DNA of 38,318 bases from Candidatus Amesbacteria bacterium GW2011_GWB1_47_19 (lineage in GTDB: Bacteria; Patescibacteriota; Microgenomatia; CAZETR01; Amesbacteraceae). The stretch covers positions 196,125 to 234,442 of the forward strand of contig LCNZ01000006.1 in the NCBI GenBank assembly GCA_001002325.1, given 5' to 3'. This document shows, one piece after another, positions 17,753 through 32,820 of the stretch (positions are counted from its first letter, which is position 1; each line of letters begins with the position of its first letter). A program made the translations under genes and the position numbers. The notes under the pieces are model-generated. The model was not told the origin of the DNA and did no database searches. It saw nothing but the letters and a program-made list of their open reading frames with translations.

Positions 17753-18613
17753 CTACCAGGTGAAGCTGGTGTAGACCCAGTTGATGAGTAATTCCGTGTC
17801 CCGGAAACGATCGTCGCTGCCCAAAACAGAAATAATAACCGGATGGTTATTACGGTTTACTAATGTAACCAGGGATTGACCAGCTAAATCGGTGAAACCG
17901 GTTTTGGCACCCAGAACCCCTTCGACCTTGCCCAATAATATATTGGTGTTGTTGAGAATATGGGCGGAGTTGGAATTTTCAGTGGCAAGAACCGCATTTT
18001 CTGCGGAAACGATGCGAGCCAGAAGGGTTTGGTGCATGAATTCATCGGCCAAACGGGCTAAATCCGCAGCAGTGGAAACATGACCGTCTTGGTCCAAACC
18101 GGAGGGGTTTTGGTATACGGTGTGCAGAAGATGCAACTCTCCCGCCCGGTTATTCATCGCGGTGACAAAAGATTCACGGCCTCCGGGATAATTTTCGGCG
18201 AGGACTTCGGCAGCATCGTTGGCGGATTGTACCAGGAGAGCATACAACAGACGTTCGACGGTAATCTGCTCACCGGGGGTAAGGCCGATATCCTGGCCTT
18301 CGGAATAGGCTTTGGATACGGTAATTACCCGGTCCGGAGGGTAGAAGGCCAGGGCCACCAGGGCAGTCATCATTTTGGTAGTAGAAGCGGGGTGAATCCG
18401 GGAATCAGCGTCCAATGAATACAATGGGGTACGATGAGTAACATCCCAAATAAAAATGTGCCGGGCGGAAATCTGCGGCAGGGGTAAATTTTTAGACTGA
18501 GGCAGGGGAGCGGAAATTCCTGTTACGGGGAGCGGAGCTGAAAACGCAAACCAGCGAACAGCCAGAGCGACAAGCAGAACTAAAATCCCCATGGATATTA
18601 AGAGCCGAGTCAT
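17753..18613 (-). CDS. D-alanyl-D-alanine carboxypeptidase (PBP5/DacA family)
   Basis: This 286-residue penicillin-binding-type serine peptidase trims pentapeptide side chains of peptidoglycan outside the membrane. An N-terminal hydrophobic segment (about 4-25) is a signal or anchor. Catalytic motifs are SxxK at S77-K80 (ASTTKMMTAL), SxN in VQSANDAAEVL, and KTG in LGAKTGFTDLAGQ. The protein ends soon after the catalytic domain, so the C-terminal beta domain and amphipathic anchor of E. coli PBP5 are absent. It overlaps the end of aspS by 4 bp (ATGA) and is likely translated from the same mRNA. Confidence 0.93.
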   Translation of the reverse strand: MTRLLISMGILVLLVALAVRWFAFSAPLPVTGISAPLPQSKNLPLPQISARHIFIWDVTHRTPLYSLDADSRIHPASTTKMMTALVALAFYPPDRVITVSKAYSEGQDIGLTPGEQITVERLLYALLVQSANDAAEVLAENYPGGRESFVTAMNNRAGELHLLHTVYQNPSGLDQDGHVSTAADLARLADEFMHQTLLARIVSAENAVLATENSNSAHILNNTNILLGKVEGVLGAKTGFTDLAGQSLVTLVNRNNHPVIISVLGSDDRFRDTELLINWVYTSFTW

Positions 18614-20034
18614 GATCTTTTCTGAAGGGTGGAGAGGCGGACGTCTGCCAGAGTTATTCCCAACTCTTTAAGTTGTTGGGGAGAAGCCGGTGAGGGCGCG
18701 TCCATGACCGCGGTTTGGCCGGAAGAACTGGTGGGAAAAGCTATAACTTCGCGAACACTGGGTTCACCCAAGGCGGCCATCAGGAAACGGTCTATTCCCG
18801 GGGCTATACCACCGTGCGGGGGAACACCGTAAGTAAAAGCCCTGAGCATATGTTCAAACTGGAGTTTTTGGGAAGGGGTAAAACCGATAAGATCAAAAAT
18901 TTTGTCTTGAATTTCGGGTTGGTGAATCCGGATACTCCCCCCCCCGATTTCGAATCCGTTGAGCACCAGATCGTGCTGTAAGCCTCTAACCTTCATAGGG
19001 TCAGTATCCAACAAAGAGATGTCTTCGTGATGAGGGGCGGTAAACATATGATGTGAGGGGGCAAATTTGGCTTTGCCGGATCCGTAATAAAAATCGTCCT
19101 GTGATTGCTCGGTAAACAGGGGGAAATCTATAGTCCAGGAAAATGCCAATTCGTCAGGGTCATTTGTATCCTGCCGTAAATCCGGTTTGTCTGTTCCATA
19201 CTTAGTTTTAGCTTCGAAATGGGGAATCCGAGGCCATGGAGATCGGGAGATGTGTTTGTCGGGAAAAAGTTCTTTTATCAGCCGGGTAAACATGGTTTCA
19301 ATAAGTTCCAAAATTTCATCCTGGGTAACAAATGACATTTCCAGATCCAGCTGGGTAAACTCACCGTACGCGCGATCTGCACGGGGATCTTCGTCGCGGA
19401 AACAACGGGCGATTTGGAAATATCTTTCCAGACCGGCCACCATTAACATTTGCTTGTATTGTTGGGGAGACTGGGGGAGAGCATAAAAGTTACCCTTTTG
19501 CAGGCGGGAGGGAACAATGAAATCACGCGCGCCTTCAGGTGTGGTTTTGGTAAGAATGGGGGTTTCGACTTCGATAAATCCCTCCTTAACCAAATGATTA
19601 CGAATGAAAGTGGTTACTTGGGAGCGGAGACGAAGATTATTTGTCATGCGATTACGCCGGATATCAAGATACCTGTATTTAAGGCGAATTTCTTCGTCTA
19701 TCTCGAGACCGGAAGTGTCTATTGGAAGCGGTAATTCGGCGGCTTTGGAGATGAGTTCCATTTTTGCCGCTTCGACTTCGACGGTACCGGTAGCGAGTTT
19801 GGGGTTGACTAATTTTTCCGGGCGGGCTTTGACGGTACCGGTAATGTAGACTACATCTTCGGAATGCAAATCTGCGGCCAGGTCGGGAGTTAAAACCACC
19901 TGGACCAGGCCGGTGCGGTCACGCAGGTCGATAAAAACAATTTTGCCGTGATCCCGACGGGTATTGACCCAGCCTTTGAGCAGGACCAGCTCCCCTACTT
20001 TGGAAATAGTATCGATGGTCAGAGTTCTGTTCAT
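18610..20034 (-). CDS. aspS: Aspartyl-tRNA synthetase lacking the GAD insertion
   Basis: This 474-residue class II synthetase has an N-terminal OB-fold anticodon-binding domain (1-105, LKGWVNTRRDHGKIVFIDLRD) followed by motifs 1-3. Visible landmarks are FIEVETPILTKTTPEGARDF, RCFRDEDPRADRAYGEFTQLD and GIAPGIDRFLM. Bacterial AspRS is about 590 residues; here YGTDKPDLR runs almost straight into WTIDFPLF, so the GAD domain of about 100 residues is missing. ATG at 20034 is preferred, with an in-frame GTG at 20046 as alternative; neither has a good Shine-Dalgarno site. It is the first gene of the aspS-carboxypeptidase pair. Confidence 0.95.
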   Translation of the reverse strand: MNRTLTIDTISKVGELVLLKGWVNTRRDHGKIVFIDLRDRTGLVQVVLTPDLAADLHSEDVVYITGTVKARPEKLVNPKLATGTVEVEAAKMELISKAAELPLPIDTSGLEIDEEIRLKYRYLDIRRNRMTNNLRLRSQVTTFIRNHLVKEGFIEVETPILTKTTPEGARDFIVPSRLQKGNFYALPQSPQQYKQMLMVAGLERYFQIARCFRDEDPRADRAYGEFTQLDLEMSFVTQDEILELIETMFTRLIKELFPDKHISRSPWPRIPHFEAKTKYGTDKPDLRQDTNDPDELAFSWTIDFPLFTEQSQDDFYYGSGKAKFAPSHHMFTAPHHEDISLLDTDPMKVRGLQHDLVLNGFEIGGGSIRIHQPEIQDKIFDLIGFTPSQKLQFEHMLRAFTYGVPPHGGIAPGIDRFLMAALGEPSVREVIAFPTSSSGQTAVMDAPSPASPQQLKELGITLADVRLSTLQKRS

Positions 20035-20068
20035 GGATGTACCCACGAGGTGATCGCTTAACTATAAA

Positions 20069-20108
20069 ACCTCACCCCCGACCCCTCTCCTGATTCAGGA
20101 GAGGGGAG
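20069..20108. repeat. Palindromic repeat element, copy 3
   Basis: It begins ACCTCACCCCC and has the hairpin CCCCTCTCCTGA/TCAGGAGAGGGG. It lies upstream of aspS. Confidence 0.75.
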
Positions 20109-20152
20109 ATAGATTGAGATAATTTTAACTCAATTTGGGGTGATTATCCGGG

Positions 20153-20181
20153 TTGACAGCCTGACGGTCAAGCGGTACAAT
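20153..20181 (+). promoter_or_regulatory. Consensus sigma-70 promoter
   Basis: TTGACA (20153-20158), a 17-bp spacer and TACAAT (20176-20181) form the best -35/-10 pair in the window. The predicted start point is near 20188, so the transcript would have a leader of about 150 nt before the next gene. Confidence 0.75.
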
Positions 20182-20187
20182 TTAGGG

Positions 20188-20338
20188 ACTTTATGAGGCT
20201 GTATTCTTTCATCTCCCGCCGGGCAGTCCAGATTTGGGACGGCTGCCTGATGCTCACTAATAAGAGCTGAGCGGGGGGGGAAGAAAAAGATTTAAAAATA
20301 TTTTCAAACCCTCCCGAAATAGAAAGGGAGGTTTTTTT
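20188..20338 (+). ncRNA. Structured leader RNA / candidate small RNA
   Basis: The region lies between a consensus promoter and an intrinsic terminator and can fold into a three-way junction. P1 pairs CTCCCGC (20213-20219) with GCGGGGG (20271-20277, one G-U). P2 pairs GGCA+GTCC (20222-20229) with GGAC (20237-20240) and TGCC (20244-20247), leaving a GGC bulge. P3 pairs GCTC (20252-20255) with GAGC (20264-20267). An A-rich stretch then leads to the terminator. A 25-codon frame, 20193-20270, is embedded in it. I do not recognise a known riboswitch, SRP RNA, 6S RNA or T-box. It may be a stand-alone small RNA or an attenuator for the downstream genes. Confidence 0.5.
20310..20338 (+). terminator. 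Intrinsic terminator whose 3' arm is a Shine-Dalgarno sequence
   Basis: CCTCCC (20310-20315), a 10-nt loop, and GGGAGG (20326-20331) are followed by seven T (20332-20338). The next base begins an ATG. GGGAGG is therefore both the terminator arm and a ribosome-binding site 7 nt from that ATG. Confidence 0.75.
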
Positions 20339-20545
20339 ATGAGTAAAATACAATTATCGCAAGCGCAGGGACAACTGATATCCGCGGTGTACGCCGGCGG
20401 GGAAGAGGCGCTGTGGCGGATTGCCCGAAAAGGTGGACCAGCCGGGGAGCTGGCCATATCAGCGCTGGAACAGTTGACCACGCCGGATTCCGACCTGTCC
20501 CCCATTGAAGCCGTGAATTTAGTTATTGAAGAAAATATTCATTAA
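20339..20545 (+). CDS. Small hypothetical protein under attenuator control
   Basis: The product has 68 residues, is helical and soluble, and contains GGEEALWRIARKGGPAGELAI and an acidic C-terminus. No family is recognised. The ATG immediately follows the terminator T-run, with the Shine-Dalgarno GGGAGG held in the hairpin. If the terminator forms, the gene is not transcribed; if the hairpin is opened, the site is free. A second small gene follows 13 nt later with its own strong Shine-Dalgarno site, supporting a real two-gene unit. The alternative is that the leader is a small RNA and this frame is fortuitous. Confidence 0.55.
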   Translation: MSKIQLSQAQGQLISAVYAGGEEALWRIARKGGPAGELAISALEQLTTPDSDLSPIEAVNLVIEENIH

Positions 20546-20558
20546 GGGGGTGAATTGA

Positions 20559-20705
20559 ATGGCAAAAGAGATAGTCGTAGATTCAAAAACTTATGGAGGC
20601 CAACCGGTTAGGGTTCATATTAGACCCGGAGAGGGCGGAAAGCCTGGTGAAGTGGTAAGGGTCGTAAGAGTGCCCAAATCATCTGATAACAAACCTAGAC
20701 CTTGA
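20559..20705 (+). CDS. Small basic hypothetical protein
   Basis: This 48-codon frame starts with ATG preceded by a purine-rich Shine-Dalgarno site (AAGGGGGTG, about 8 nt away). The product is basic and beta-prone (KEIVVDSKTYGGQPVRVHI, then EVVRVVRVPK) with a Ser/Asn/Pro tail. No family is recognised. It follows the 68-residue gene closely and likely shares its transcript; a palindromic repeat element follows and may end it. Confidence 0.55.
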   Translation: MAKEIVVDSKTYGGQPVRVHIRPGEGGKPGEVVRVVRVPKSSDNKPRP

Positions 20706-20718
20706 AGTGATCTAAATA

Positions 20719-20758
20719 ACTCACCCCCAACCCCTCTCTTAAATTTAAGAGAGGGGAG
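20719..20758. repeat. Palindromic repeat element, copy 4
   Basis: It begins ACTCACCCCC and has the perfect hairpin CCCCTCTCTTAAA/TTTAAGAGAGGGG. It lies between convergent genes and is a plausible bidirectional terminator. Confidence 0.75.
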
Positions 20759-20773
20759 CAGCGGGGAATCTAT

Positions 20774-22249
20774 TTAATTTTTTAGAGTTTTTTGGATCTT
20801 GCGGCGGGCGGTAGTGGTAACGGCAAATTCCAGCCAGTCGGTGCTGGGAGCAGTGCGTTTGCGGTCGATAATCAATTCCACGACATCCCCGTTTTTCAGC
20901 TCGTGATTTAAGCTGACCAGTTTGCCGTTGACTTTGGCTCCAGCCACCTGGTGGCCGAGATCGGAATGGACAGCGTAAGCATAATCGACAGGAGTGGCCC
21001 CTTTGGGAAGATCATAAACATCTCCTTTGGGGGAAAAAACCAAATTGCGGTGCTGGAGGGCGTCAAATTTGAGAGCGGAGAGATATTCCTCGTTGGAGGT
21101 GAGTTCCTTTTGCCAGGCGGCAAGCTGTTTTACCCAGTTAAGCTTATTTGACGGCCCGGTAATTCCTTTTTCCAACCGGGCGTCTGAAATACCGGCGGTT
21201 TTGGCTTGGCTATAGTGCCAATGAGCGGCCACACCCATTTCCGCTTCCTGATGCATGGCGTGAGTCCTGATCTGCAGCTCGACAATCCGACCCTGGGGGC
21301 CAAAAACGTTGGTATGCAGGCTCCGGTAACCGTTGGCTTTGGGATTGGCAATAAAATCACGGACTCCCAAGTAGGGCACGGGGTGAAACTTGCCATGAAT
21401 AATCCCCAAAGCCTGGTAGCATTGGGGGGTGGTGTCCACCAGGATACGGGCGGCGGCCAGATCGTAAATGTTGGCCAGATCGTTTTGGTGTTCCGGACGG
21501 GCCAGTTTATGAAACAGGCTGTACAAATGCTTGTGACGGGTGTTGATTACCACATCGGGTAATTGAGGGGTGAGCAGGGTGAGCAGTTGACGGCGGAATT
21601 TCTGGATAAAAGCCTCGGACTGGGCGTAAAAAGATTTGGCTGTGGCGATTAACGCCTGATACTCGGCGGGGTACACATAGGGAAAAGCCAGGTCTTCCAG
21701 ACGGCCTTTGATTTCCCCCATCCCCAACCTTTCTGCCAGAGGAGCATATATTTCCAGAGTTTCTCGGGCGTTTGTAACCTGGTTTTCGGGCGGCAGAAAT
21801 TGCAAAGTCTCCATATTGTGCAGACGGTCGGCTAATTTGACTAAAATAACCCGCAGGTCCTTGGCCATAACTAAAATCATTTTGCGCAAGTTCTCGACAA
21901 ATTCCGCCTGGACGCTGCCCCGAAGGCGAATATCGGTAATTTTGGTGACACCATCGACTATCCGGGCGATGGGCTCTCCGAACTCCTTTACCAGGTCCGC
22001 CCGGGTGGCACCACCGTCCTCAACTGTATCGTGCAGGAGGCCGGCAACGATGGTTTCGGTATCCAGATTCCAGAGAGCCAGAGTTTTGGCTACCTGTGTA
22101 GGATGCGTAATATAATCGTCACCCGAAAGCCGAGACTGACTGGTGTGAGCCAAATTCGCGAAGTTCCAGGCCTTTATTATTAAATCCTCGTCAATGGGGC
22201 GAGGGGTAATCCGGATAGCGGCTAATAAATCTTCAAGAAGCGGGCGCAT
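20774..22249 (-). CDS. rel: RelA/SpoT-type (p)ppGpp synthetase/hydrolase, short form
   Basis: The product has 491 residues. An N-terminal HD hydrolase domain (about 25-180) has HTSQSRLSGDDYITHP and the HD pair in LLHDTVEDGG. The synthetase domain (about 225-345) includes YDLAAARILV, GYRSLHTNVFG and ELQIRTHAMHQEAEMGVAAHW. A TGS domain (about 405-470) has DVYDLPKGATPVDYAYAVH. Full-length Rel proteins are about 730 residues; the zinc-finger/RIS and C-terminal ACT regulatory domains are absent. Both catalytic domains look complete, so it may make and degrade (p)ppGpp. The start overlaps the end of recJ by 17 bp. Confidence 0.93.
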   Translation of the reverse strand: MRPLLEDLLAAIRITPRPIDEDLIIKAWNFANLAHTSQSRLSGDDYITHPTQVAKTLALWNLDTETIVAGLLHDTVEDGGATRADLVKEFGEPIARIVDGVTKITDIRLRGSVQAEFVENLRKMILVMAKDLRVILVKLADRLHNMETLQFLPPENQVTNARETLEIYAPLAERLGMGEIKGRLEDLAFPYVYPAEYQALIATAKSFYAQSEAFIQKFRRQLLTLLTPQLPDVVINTRHKHLYSLFHKLARPEHQNDLANIYDLAAARILVDTTPQCYQALGIIHGKFHPVPYLGVRDFIANPKANGYRSLHTNVFGPQGRIVELQIRTHAMHQEAEMGVAAHWHYSQAKTAGISDARLEKGITGPSNKLNWVKQLAAWQKELTSNEEYLSALKFDALQHRNLVFSPKGDVYDLPKGATPVDYAYAVHSDLGHQVAGAKVNGKLVSLNHELKNGDVVELIIDRKRTAPSTDWLEFAVTTTARRKIQKTLKN

Positions 22250-23858
22250 GAGGAATTATATCCTGAATAATAAGCTGGAGTGATGAGCGACCATTGAAAA
22301 TATTGAGCGTAGGTTTGTAGATAATATCGTATGAGGTACTAGGTTCTAGGTTATAGTGATTAGGAATATTAAACCAGATGGCTTCCAGATTATCGACCCG
22401 GAATTTGAGGTGTTGTCTGTCCCTGCCGACGTGACTGATACCTGTAATTTGTATATTTGAAGTGGTAAAGACCGGCTGGGGATTACCGAGACCATACGGC
22501 TCAAAGTCTTGGAGTTTAGTGATTAGGTTATAGGTTATAGTGGCTAGTGGGATTTTAGCGTCGATGCGACGTGTATTAACGAAAATTTTGGGATCTATAA
22601 CCGGATGGGAGACGGCTAAGATGAATTTATCCAAAATTTGATTATTTAAAGAGAAGCCTGCGGCACCGGCATGACCTCCGACTGACAGGAGGAGATCCGA
22701 AAGAGAACGCAGGTGGTCGGTGATATTAAAGCCGGGAAGGGAGCGGGCTGAACCTTTGCTGATGGACTCCCCTATGGCGATGGCAATTGCGGGCCGATGA
22801 TATTTTTCCGCCAATTTACCGGCAATCAAGCCGATTATTCCTTCGTCATATGAGGTATCGGCGACAATAATCAATGGCGGAAGATTATTTTCGTCGATCA
22901 GTGTCTGTGCATGGGTAAAAGCCGACAATGTCAGATCCTGGCGGGAACGGTTGGTGTCACCCAAAGAACGGGCCAATGATGCCGCCTTATCGGGATTGGT
23001 GGTGCAAAGCAGCCTTAAGCTGTCTATGGCATGCTCCAACCTGCCCATGGCATTGAGACGGGGACCAACTATGAAACCTGCGTGGTAACTGGTTATAACC
23101 TCACCCCTATCCCCTCTCCTGAATTCAGGAGAGGGGAAAATGTTAGCCGAATGCATGAGGGCGAGCAGACCGGGACGGGAGGTGCGGTTTAAAGCTTCCA
23201 ATCCAAATTTGGCCAGACTACGGTTTATCCCGAGGAGGGGAATGATGTCACAAATAACGGAAAGGGCGACGAGTTCGAGAGTAGAAGTTTTTGGGGTTAG
23301 GTTATAGATTTTAGAAAATTCACGGGAGAAAAACCAGGCCAGGCCGGCGGCAGTGGTAGCGGTGGAGTGCAAAATAACCGAAGCCGGGGGAAGTGTGGCC
23401 AACGGTTCGTGATGGTCGATGATGATTAAATCACAATTTTTACTTTGGCAATACGCGACCTGTTCGTGAGCGACTATTCCGTTATCGACGGTAATAATCA
23501 GTTTGGCCCCCAAGGAGAGACAATGGTCTATCCCTTTGCGGGACAAACCGTAGCCTTCTTCACGGCGATGGGGGATGTGGGGCAAAACCCCGGAATATAC
23601 AGAATGGATGGCTTCCCACATAACAGCTGTGGCGCAGAGACCATCCACGTCATAATCCCCGTAAATAAAAATCTTGTGACCTGAATTAATATGGGAACGG
23701 ATGAGGTCGGAGGCGGCAGTAACCAAGTCTAAGTCTAAGTTCAAGTCTAAGAGGGAAATGTCATCGGGGTGGAGAGGGTGAAAAAATTCTTCGATAAGAC
23801 CGGGGTTGGTCAGGCCGCGATTTTTAAGAAGAAGGGTGATAAGTTCGTCAGGCTGCAT
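22233..23858 (-). CDS. recJ: Single-stranded-DNA-specific exonuclease RecJ (DHH family)
   Basis: This 541-residue protein degrades single-stranded DNA 5' to 3' in repair and recombination, using two metal ions. Motifs visible are IYGDYDVDGLCATAVMW, ITVDNG, and the DHH in LIIIDHHEPL. The DHHA1 domain follows with SVGGHAGAAGFSL, and a C-terminal OB-fold includes the IWFNIPNHYNL region. Several stretches come from repeats. Residues about 240-254 (FPSPEFRRGDRGE) are encoded by a palindromic element, and L-D-L-N-L-D-L-D-L near residue 40 and Y-N-L-E-P-S-T-S-Y near the end come from short-unit tracts. They lie outside the catalytic motifs, so the protein is probably active. Confidence 0.94.
   Translation of the reverse strand: MQPDELITLLLKNRGLTNPGLIEEFFHPLHPDDISLLDLNLDLDLVTAASDLIRSHINSGHKIFIYGDYDVDGLCATAVMWEAIHSVYSGVLPHIPHRREEGYGLSRKGIDHCLSLGAKLIITVDNGIVAHEQVAYCQSKNCDLIIIDHHEPLATLPPASVILHSTATTAAGLAWFFSREFSKIYNLTPKTSTLELVALSVICDIIPLLGINRSLAKFGLEALNRTSRPGLLALMHSANIFPSPEFRRGDRGEVITSYHAGFIVGPRLNAMGRLEHAIDSLRLLCTTNPDKAASLARSLGDTNRSRQDLTLSAFTHAQTLIDENNLPPLIIVADTSYDEGIIGLIAGKLAEKYHRPAIAIAIGESISKGSARSLPGFNITDHLRSLSDLLLSVGGHAGAAGFSLNNQILDKFILAVSHPVIDPKIFVNTRRIDAKIPLATITYNLITKLQDFEPYGLGNPQPVFTTSNIQITGISHVGRDRQHLKFRVDNLEAIWFNIPNHYNLEPSTSYDIIYKPTLNIFNGRSSLQLIIQDIIPHAPAS
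23098..23140. repeat. Palindromic repeat element, copy 5, in-frame inside recJ
   Basis: It begins AACCTCACCCC and has the perfect hairpin CCCCTCTCCTGAA/TTCAGGAGAGGGG. It is translated on the minus strand without a stop, as part of RecJ. Confidence 0.8.
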
Positions 23859-23860
23859 GC

Positions 23861-23870
23861 TACAATTTTA
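23861..23870. promoter_or_regulatory. Overlapping divergent -10 boxes between recJ and cca
   Basis: The two ATG codons (23858 minus, 23876 plus) are separated by 17 bp. On the plus strand, TACAAT (23861-23866, with an upstream TG at the extended -10 position) lies 9 nt before the cca ATG. On the minus strand, TAAAAT (23870-23865) lies 6 nt before the recJ ATG. The two boxes share 2 bp. Confidence 0.55.
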
Positions 23871-23875
23871 ACAGC

Positions 23876-25267
23876 ATGACCCTAAAGATCCCCGTACCTT
23901 CAGATGTGACTGGAGTACTGAATAAAATGACTAAAGCAGGGTATGAAGTGTATATAGTGGGAGGAGTGATAAGGGACTTTTTGCTGAAAAGACCGTTATA
24001 CGACTGGGATATGACTACGAACGCAATGCCGGAAGAAATTTTGAAACTGTTCCCGGACGCGTTTTATGACAATAAATACGGAACGGTGGGAATACCAAGG
24101 GAGATACTAAGCGACAAAGATACAAAGTTGCAGAGCAGGCCGGTTGAGATAACCACTTTCAGAACGGAACACGGATATTCGGACAGCAGGCATCCCGATG
24201 AAGTGAGGTGGGGAAAAACCCTGGAGGAAGATCTGGCCCGGCGCGAATTCACGATCAGCGCAATGGCGCTGCGGCCGATTCAGCGGAAATATACGTTTGA
24301 ACTGATTGACCTGCACGGAGGGATCAGAGACCTGGAAGACAAACTGCTCAGGACGGTGGGAGATGCCAACCAGAGATTTTCAGAAGACGCCCTGAGAATG
24401 ATCCGGGCGGTCAGAATCGCTTCCCAGCTGGGATTTGCCATAGAAGAGGCGACTTTTGCGGCAATTCAGGCAAATGCAGGCAATATCAGGCAGATTTCGG
24501 CAGAGCGGGTGCGAGATGAATTATTGAAGATCATGGCCAGTGATTTCCCGGCGGACGGATATCTGCTTTTAAGAAACACCGGGCTGGGAGAATATGTGCT
24601 GCCGGAGATGGAAGGGGCATTCGGGGTGGAGCAAAAAAGCCCGGGGAGACATCATATTTATGATGTGGGAACTCACGCGGTGGAATCCCTGAGGAATTGT
24701 CCCAGCAAGGATTCCATAACCCGGCTGGCAACGCTGGTGCATGACGCGGGAAAAGTAAAAACCCAAAAAATATTTCCTGACGGAAAAATCACTTTTTTCA
24801 ACCATGAAATGGCGGGGGCAAAAATTGCAGAAAAAATTGCCGGGAGGCTGAGATTTTCTAACAACCAGAAAGAGAGGTTTGTGACGCTCGTCAGATGGCA
24901 CCAGTTTACGGTTGACGAACGGCAGACTGACAGTGCCATCAGACGGTTTATCCGAAATGTGGGGGTGGAGAATGTAATGGAAATGCTGGCACTGCGAACC
25001 GGGGACCGATTGGGGGGTGGGGCTAAAATGACCAGCTGGCGGCTGGAAGAATTTAAAAAGAGGCTTCTGGAAGTCCAAAAACAACCATTTTCTGTAGCCG
25101 ACCTGAAAATTTCCGGTTTAGACGTAATGGAAATAAAGGGGATCAGCCCGGGACCAGCGGTGGGCAAGTACCTGCAAGCGCTTTTTACGGAGGTGGAAGA
25201 AAAGGGATTAGTGAACGAGAAAGAAATTTTAATCGAGAGACTGAAAGGGTTAGTCGTTGATCGCTGA
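23876..25267 (+). CDS. cca: CCA-adding tRNA nucleotidyltransferase (poly(A) polymerase superfamily)
   Basis: This 463-residue protein adds or repairs the 3' CCA end of tRNAs. The class II nucleotidyltransferase head (about 15-150) has VYIVGGVIRDFLLKRPLYDWDMTTNA, with the GG and the D-x-D metal-binding pair, followed by RREFTISAMAL. The RNA-binding neck has RFSEDALRMIRAVRIASQLGF. An HD domain (about 255-375) has LATLVHDAGKVKT and FNHEMAGA, so the protein belongs to the HD-containing subgroup. It diverges from recJ with almost no intergenic space. Its last codons (L-V-V-D-R) come from a short-unit repeat tract. Confidence 0.94.
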   Translation: MTLKIPVPSDVTGVLNKMTKAGYEVYIVGGVIRDFLLKRPLYDWDMTTNAMPEEILKLFPDAFYDNKYGTVGIPREILSDKDTKLQSRPVEITTFRTEHGYSDSRHPDEVRWGKTLEEDLARREFTISAMALRPIQRKYTFELIDLHGGIRDLEDKLLRTVGDANQRFSEDALRMIRAVRIASQLGFAIEEATFAAIQANAGNIRQISAERVRDELLKIMASDFPADGYLLLRNTGLGEYVLPEMEGAFGVEQKSPGRHHIYDVGTHAVESLRNCPSKDSITRLATLVHDAGKVKTQKIFPDGKITFFNHEMAGAKIAEKIAGRLRFSNNQKERFVTLVRWHQFTVDERQTDSAIRRFIRNVGVENVMEMLALRTGDRLGGGAKMTSWRLEEFKKRLLEVQKQPFSVADLKISGLDVMEIKGISPGPAVGKYLQALFTEVEEKGLVNEKEILIERLKGLVVDR

Positions 25268-32561: not shown

Positions 32562-32820
32562 ACCTGGAGGCGAATAAGCCAGATTCTGTTTTGACGGCAT
32601 CTATCTAGTGCCCTCAAGCTTTTGGGTATAGGGGAAGGCGACCCACCCAGTTCGGAGGTTGCAGCGGGGAGGATTGCCCGTTTCACCCGAGCATTACCCC
32701 GGTTCGTCACTGTTGCTCTAACTAGCGCTTACGCGTTCCCGCTTACACGGGACACCCCGCCTTCTGCTGTCTGGACTTTCCTCTCTACCTTGCGGCAGAG
32801 TAGCCGTCCTGCCTCCAGGT
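32562..32820 (-). ncRNA. rnpB: RNase P RNA
   Basis: Read on the minus strand, the two ends pair perfectly over 10 bp (ACCTGGAGGC at 32820-32811 with GCCTCCAGGT at 32571-32562), forming P1. The universally conserved GAGGAAAGTCC lies at 32783-32773, and the 3' conserved block ACAGAATCTGGCTTAT at 32589-32574. GGGTGAAACGGG lies in the middle. At about 259 nt it is shorter than typical type A RNAs (350-400), so peripheral helices appear reduced. It is the catalytic subunit that matures tRNA 5' ends. Confidence 0.95.

Follow-up and report, generated by a model that had tools for sequence, protein, structure and literature searches.

A short unit beside aspS, in a 38,318-nt stretch of DNA from Candidatus Amesbacteria bacterium GW2011_GWB1_47_19 (the window), carries a promoter, a leader that ends in a terminator, and two small genes. 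What decides whether transcription that starts there reaches the two genes? A preliminary description, made from the sequence alone, proposed a riboswitch or an attenuator; it made no mention of a 25-codon ORF in the leader or of pairing between a G-run and CCCTCCC. Our analysis indicates that positions 20153-20338 are very probably a ribosome-mediated (leader-peptide) transcription attenuator. The anatomy, its conservation in a family of leaders, its recurrence in the class and the gene-matched peptides of relatives are computed; the switch itself we infer.

Anatomy of the leader and its genes

The features of the unit are collected in Table 1. The promoter (boxes TTGACA, 20153-20158, and TACAAT, 20176-20181, separated by a 17-nt spacer) lies where the preliminary description had placed it and is the top promoter match across 18000-24000. 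Transcription is predicted to start near 20188, some 5 nt upstream of the leader ORF, whose ATG is at 20193 and whose stop codon is at 20268-20270. The genome measures 998 kb, and the CCTCCC terminator at 20309-20338 is the only one of its kind found in it.

Table 1. Features of the unit and its neighbours, in window positions
Feature	Position	Strand	Remarks
aspS	18610-20046	minus	divergent from the attenuator unit
sigma-70-type promoter, TTGACA-17-TACAAT	20153..20181	+	11/12 consensus matches
leader ORF (uORF), 25 codons, nearly leaderless, MRLYSFISRRAVQIWDGCLMLTNKS then stop	20193..20270	+	same-place ORFs in 8/8 family leaders
segment 1 (UUCUUUCAUCUCCCGC), 5' arm of P1	20204..20219	+	RNAfold; within leader codons 4-9
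hairpin P2 in junction	20220..20249	+	RNAfold; variable among relatives
hairpin P3 in junction	20252..20267	+	RNAfold; missing from G003, G011
segment 2 (GCGGGGGGGGAAGAA)	20271..20285	+	partner: segment 1, or segment 3 via G-run; 2:3 covariation, 8 leaders
A/U-rich hairpin joining segments 2 and 3 in antiterminator	20283..20305	+	ribosome-block fold; in most family leaders
segment 3 (CCCUCCC)	20309..20315	+	antiterminator with 2, terminator with 4
segment 4 (GGGAGG) and T7	20326..20338	+	3' arm of intrinsic terminator; probable Shine-Dalgarno site
68-aa protein gene	20339..20545	+	G001 homologue; weak similarity to G003 71-aa ORF
48-aa protein gene	20559..20705	+	homologue next to aspS in G010, weak (E 2e-4 within the small ORFs of the family)
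relA/spoT	20774-22249	minus	convergent with the attenuator unit

The three-stem junction and the intrinsic terminator of the preliminary description are both recovered. RNAfold predicts the junction and terminator at 20188-20338 with a free energy of -51.4 kcal/mol (z -2.75), a stability matched by 0 of 200 shuffles, and CCCTCCC, GGGAGG (20326-20331) and the T7 run (20332-20338) are all present. Directly after the leader stop lies GCGGGGGGGG, whose G-run can pair either with segment 1 (CUCCCGC) or with CCCUCCC. A leader ORF thus stands between promoter and terminator, and the terminator and antiterminator hairpins exclude one another, as in attenuators in the broad sense. Segments 1-2-3-4 are the anatomy of a leader-peptide attenuator.

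Rfam searches of the leader, at gathering and at relaxed thresholds, returned chance matches only, in keeping with the earlier remark that no known class was recognised in it. The Rfam T-box model had no match on the window strand, and NCBIfam had none to the window leader peptide.

Both downstream genes are present as described. The ATG of the 68-codon gene is the next base after the T-run, and the 48-codon gene has a strong Shine-Dalgarno site, AAGGGGGTGA, upstream of its start. The 68-aa protein is 75% identical in the genus-mate of our collection (G001, Candidatus Amesbacteria bacterium RBG_19FT_COMBO_48_16, Microgenomates group, Patescibacteria), with a dN/dS of about 0.10 (0.18/1.79). 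Judged by sequence, this gene is real and under purifying selection. Pfam and NCBIfam place neither small protein in a known family, and a protein scan of GTDB contigs for the 68-aa gene found the genus-mate alone.

Two other features of the window were noted. Alike CTCACCCCC.ACCCCTCTC hairpin stretches carrying AGGAGAGGGG or AGAGAGGGG lie on either side of the unit, one near aspS (20069-20107) and one near the end of relA (20721-20758). A similar stretch occurs in L158, and these are possibly a dispersed repeat. The RNase P RNA (32565-32817, minus strand) reaches 91.6 bits with the archaeal model of Rfam rather than with a bacterial one.

Eight related leaders and the proposed switch

Homologous leaders in relatives, on which the preliminary description had made its reading depend, were located by aspS synteny or by sequence. 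Seven were found beyond the window, giving a family of eight (the window, G001, G003, G004, G006, G010, G011 and G012). In every one of them a start codon follows the predicted transcription start by 2-11 nt, and the frame stops close to segment 2. An ORF so close to the start arises by chance in 3-8% of shuffles per leader (P 0.03-0.08; product 5e-11). Most relatives have a counterpart of segment 1 (YUUACCYCC-like) at leader codons 6-8. What the family leaders have in common is this start-proximal ORF together with the mutually exclusive pairings 1:2, 2:3 and 3:4. The peptide sequences show hardly any conservation, and P2 and P3 vary, with G003 and G011 having a single inner hairpin.

In the 2:3 helix, 98% of cells are paired and 3 of 7 pairs show changes on both sides. 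Its covariation score is 0.476, against 0.235 +/- 0.055 in shuffles (0/500 reach 0.476), for segments that were picked by folding, a choice favouring structure. Across the eight leaders the 2:3 helix covaries; of the P1-P3 stems for which covariation had been anticipated, P2 and P3 are not conserved. The latter is evidence against an aptamer.

In folds with a ribosome modelled at codon 7 and the RNA truncated ahead of segment 4, seven of the eight leaders form the 2:3 antiterminator, G010 being the exception; a ribosome modelled at the stop yields the terminator in every one of the eight. When the ribosome is left out, the minimum-energy fold of the full-length RNA retains 2:3 in G001, G004 and G011.

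These results suggest the following course of events. The leader ORF is presumably translated in the cell, and ribosomes would load directly at the 5' end because transcription would start only about 5 nt before the leader ATG. If the ORF were untranslated, segments 1 and 2 would pair and leave segment 3 free for segment 4, so that transcription would terminate. A ribosome that reached the stop would cover segment 2, which begins at the next base (20271); 3:4 would form and transcription would again terminate. A ribosome that stayed within the ORF's first half would cover segment 1, and for that reason segment 2 would pair with segment 3 across the A/U-rich hairpin. This would antiterminate and let transcription continue into both small genes. 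In the antiterminated RNA segment 4 (GGGAGG) would be free as a Shine-Dalgarno site, and translation of the 68-codon gene would therefore probably be opened by the same switch.

What might hold the ribosome is suggested less specifically. The window leader peptide has no run of one codon of the kind found in trp-type amino-acid operons. In the sensitive stretch, the eight family peptides have only Ala, Ile and Leu in common, all frequent residues. Since they share no specific residue, the signal is just as likely to be slower translation overall, or slower initiation on a leaderless ORF, as one amino acid. The codons of the window leader point to slow translation generally. Tryptophan was considered as the sensed residue and rejected: [IK]W occurs in five of the eight leaders, yet in four it is too close to segment 2 for a stall to free it.

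Recurrence across the Microgenomates

The pattern CCTCCC-N3-14-GGGAGG-T5 is present in 170 of 374 genomes of the class. The backward-pattern control is almost absent and the mirror hairpin GGGAGG-CCTCCC-T5 was found in 1 of 94 genomes, so this is not just any terminator. A phylum-wide draw gave the terminator pattern in 15 of 116 genomes, two of these from the class; those outside it have mostly two-way terminators and a single weak ORF match.

We read 128 class sites, 125 of which had enough upstream DNA, and scored a leader ORF where a promoter (at least 9/12) was followed 5-16 nt later by the start of an ORF ending 20-62 nt before CCTCCC. Promoter and near-leaderless ORF occur together at 80 of the 125 sites, compared with 1.05 (maximum 3) in dinucleotide shuffles. 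In these 80 the promoter-to-ORF distance has its mode at 7 nt, 62 have a perfect segment 2 match to CCTCCC near the stop (shuffled 7.6%), and 65 show upstream pairing of CCUCCC where 23 are expected (mean z -3.2). The leader stop is mostly 23-37 nt before CCTCCC.

In several relatives the leader peptide matches the downstream gene. MNISINRVVCCCTS and MTVRFINLVCCCTSPKK precede PALP (cysteine-synthase-like) enzymes, MNTNQVNYFSFYFYFATRREVS and MHIRGQENYFYFYFAFRKEGGLLE precede DAHP synthase, MNLRSNLYFWFNFTFRKEGGLLG precedes prephenate dehydratase, and MLSTANHTTILFTTA precedes threonyl-tRNA synthetase. In Fisher tests whose unit is the residue, related leaders not being independent, Cys makes up 18% of leader residues before cysteine-synthase-like enzymes and 1.5% elsewhere (p 2e-11), Phe/Tyr/Trp 31% before DAHP synthase or prephenate dehydratase versus 11% (p 2e-9), and Thr matches threonyl-tRNA synthetase leaders (p 6e-4). 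The codon runs of amino-acid-operon attenuators are thus found in class relatives. Many other leaders are rich in Leu, Ile or Phe/Tyr and stand ahead of small proteins without a family.

Use of the terminator arm as a ribosome-binding site, with one hairpin for both termination and translation, fits some members better than others. The canonical 16S tail GGATCACCTCCT is present once in the window genome, so GGGAGG is able to serve as a Shine-Dalgarno site, and in the window and G003 an ATG lies exactly 7 nt past it. Across the class, 7 nt is the commonest single distance to the first start (22 of 128 sites) and the rest are scattered. Double use of segment 4, as terminator arm and as Shine-Dalgarno site, is accordingly plausible here and not general in the class. 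The proposed linkage of the leader to the gene at 20339 is likewise loose. The genus-mate keeps the 68-aa gene, but there another ORF intervenes and the gene starts more than 200 nt further on; behind the leaders of the other relatives are different small ORFs, unrelated or weakly related. In L087, L118 and others the start codon right after the T-run often opens a frame of 4-6 codons (for example ATG GAA AAA ATA TGA), and the stop of this frame overlaps the real gene's start or lies next to it, a possible case of translational coupling.

Two further groups of leaders were seen. CCTCCC/GGGAGG terminators precede genes for GreA-type N-terminal domains in L067, L069, L095, L098, L108, L115, L117, L132 and L141 (domain checked in three). 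These sites mostly have no leader ORF and probably represent attenuators of another kind; leaders of greA have been described in other bacteria (PMC2965389). On the other strand in relatives, aspS leaders of about 100 nt in L153, L154, L155, L157, L160 and L163 share an invariant TGACAA, which holds the Asp codon GAC, and GATGGCAC; both lie ahead of a terminator AAGAYCC...GGGTCTTTTTT. The UGGC in GATGGCAC complements the GCCA end expected of tRNA-Asp, and the six are possibly a short T-box-like tRNA sensor. The Rfam T-box model did not match them, and the TGACAA/GATGGCAC motif is absent upstream of aspS in the window genome.

Alternative readings and known systems

Of the two possibilities first proposed, riboswitch or attenuator, the second is favoured by the conserved ORF and the exclusive pairings. 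A ligand-binding riboswitch would make the three-way junction an aptamer choosing between the terminator and an open ribosome-binding site. The stable junction predicted in the window (z -2.75) agrees with this, but relatives with the same segments have variable or missing P2 and P3, Rfam gives no match, and the leader ORF in 8/8 leaders would be left unexplained, so that we regard an aptamer as very improbable. It is also very improbable that the leader is a stand-alone small RNA ended by the terminator, with the small gene behind it by accident and read-through of no regulatory role. Downstream genes do differ among relatives, and attenuator RNAs can work in trans (for example S. meliloti rnTrpL; PMC7298713). 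However, the terminator is at most 40 nt from a coding start at 105 of 128 class sites, and leader codons in the class match the downstream enzyme.

A third alternative keeps the leader peptide and makes translation the main output, GGGAGG being masked or freed and termination secondary. The 7 nt from segment 4 to the ATG in the window and G003 would suit it; relatives whose start codon is elsewhere still keep the T-run, and we give it scarcely any credence. The leader-peptide transcription attenuator remains our reading of the locus.

A wider proposal can be made tentatively, as somewhat less likely than not. The Microgenomates may share, across the class, attenuators with near-leaderless leader peptides that all rely on a single GGGAGG/CCTCCC code, with a terminator arm able to serve as a Shine-Dalgarno site. 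These might switch on many small proteins, including the window pair, when translation slows, letting dependent, amino-acid-poor cells read their amino-acid supply. Gene regulation in the Patescibacteria is a largely open field. Leader peptides name the sensed amino acid, and therefore each predicts the signal of its gene, a prediction testable by reporters in a laboratory strain. They offer a handle on dozens of small uncharacterised proteins in uncultured, host-dependent cells.

The amino-acid-operon attenuators (trp, his, thr, leu, ilv) likewise have a short leader ORF, alternating 1:2/2:3/3:4 pairings and a terminator before the gene, and share with the class relatives regulatory codons that fit the downstream enzyme. 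Unlike them, the window leader has no regulatory codon run, its downstream small proteins have no known family, and segments 2, 3 and 4 of the class use a nearly fixed GGGAGG/CCTCCC code. T-box and riboswitch leaders also let a terminator decide expression, whereas the window leader is an ORF with no conserved aptamer and no Rfam match. In the ermB, bmrC/D and mef/mel leaders, which respond to antibiotics or slowed translation, stalled ribosomes open a downstream gene from a leader ORF outside amino-acid operons (PMC8274638, PMC4191407, PMC4335068); the window unit differs in having no resistance or transport gene.

In leader position the unit resembles the leaderless leader peptides of Actinobacteria and trpL of S. 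meliloti, which act in attenuation (PMC8079986, PMC7298713). There too the leader ORF is at or beside the transcription start, and amino-acid and tRNA synthetase genes are attenuated. The Microgenomates belong to another phylum, many of their targets are small proteins without a known family, and their terminator arm can double as a Shine-Dalgarno site. Our search of the open-access literature found no previous description of leader peptides in Patescibacteria. Set against the known systems, what is new is the group of bacteria, a GGGAGG/CCTCCC code that is nearly fixed, and the wide range of targets without known function.
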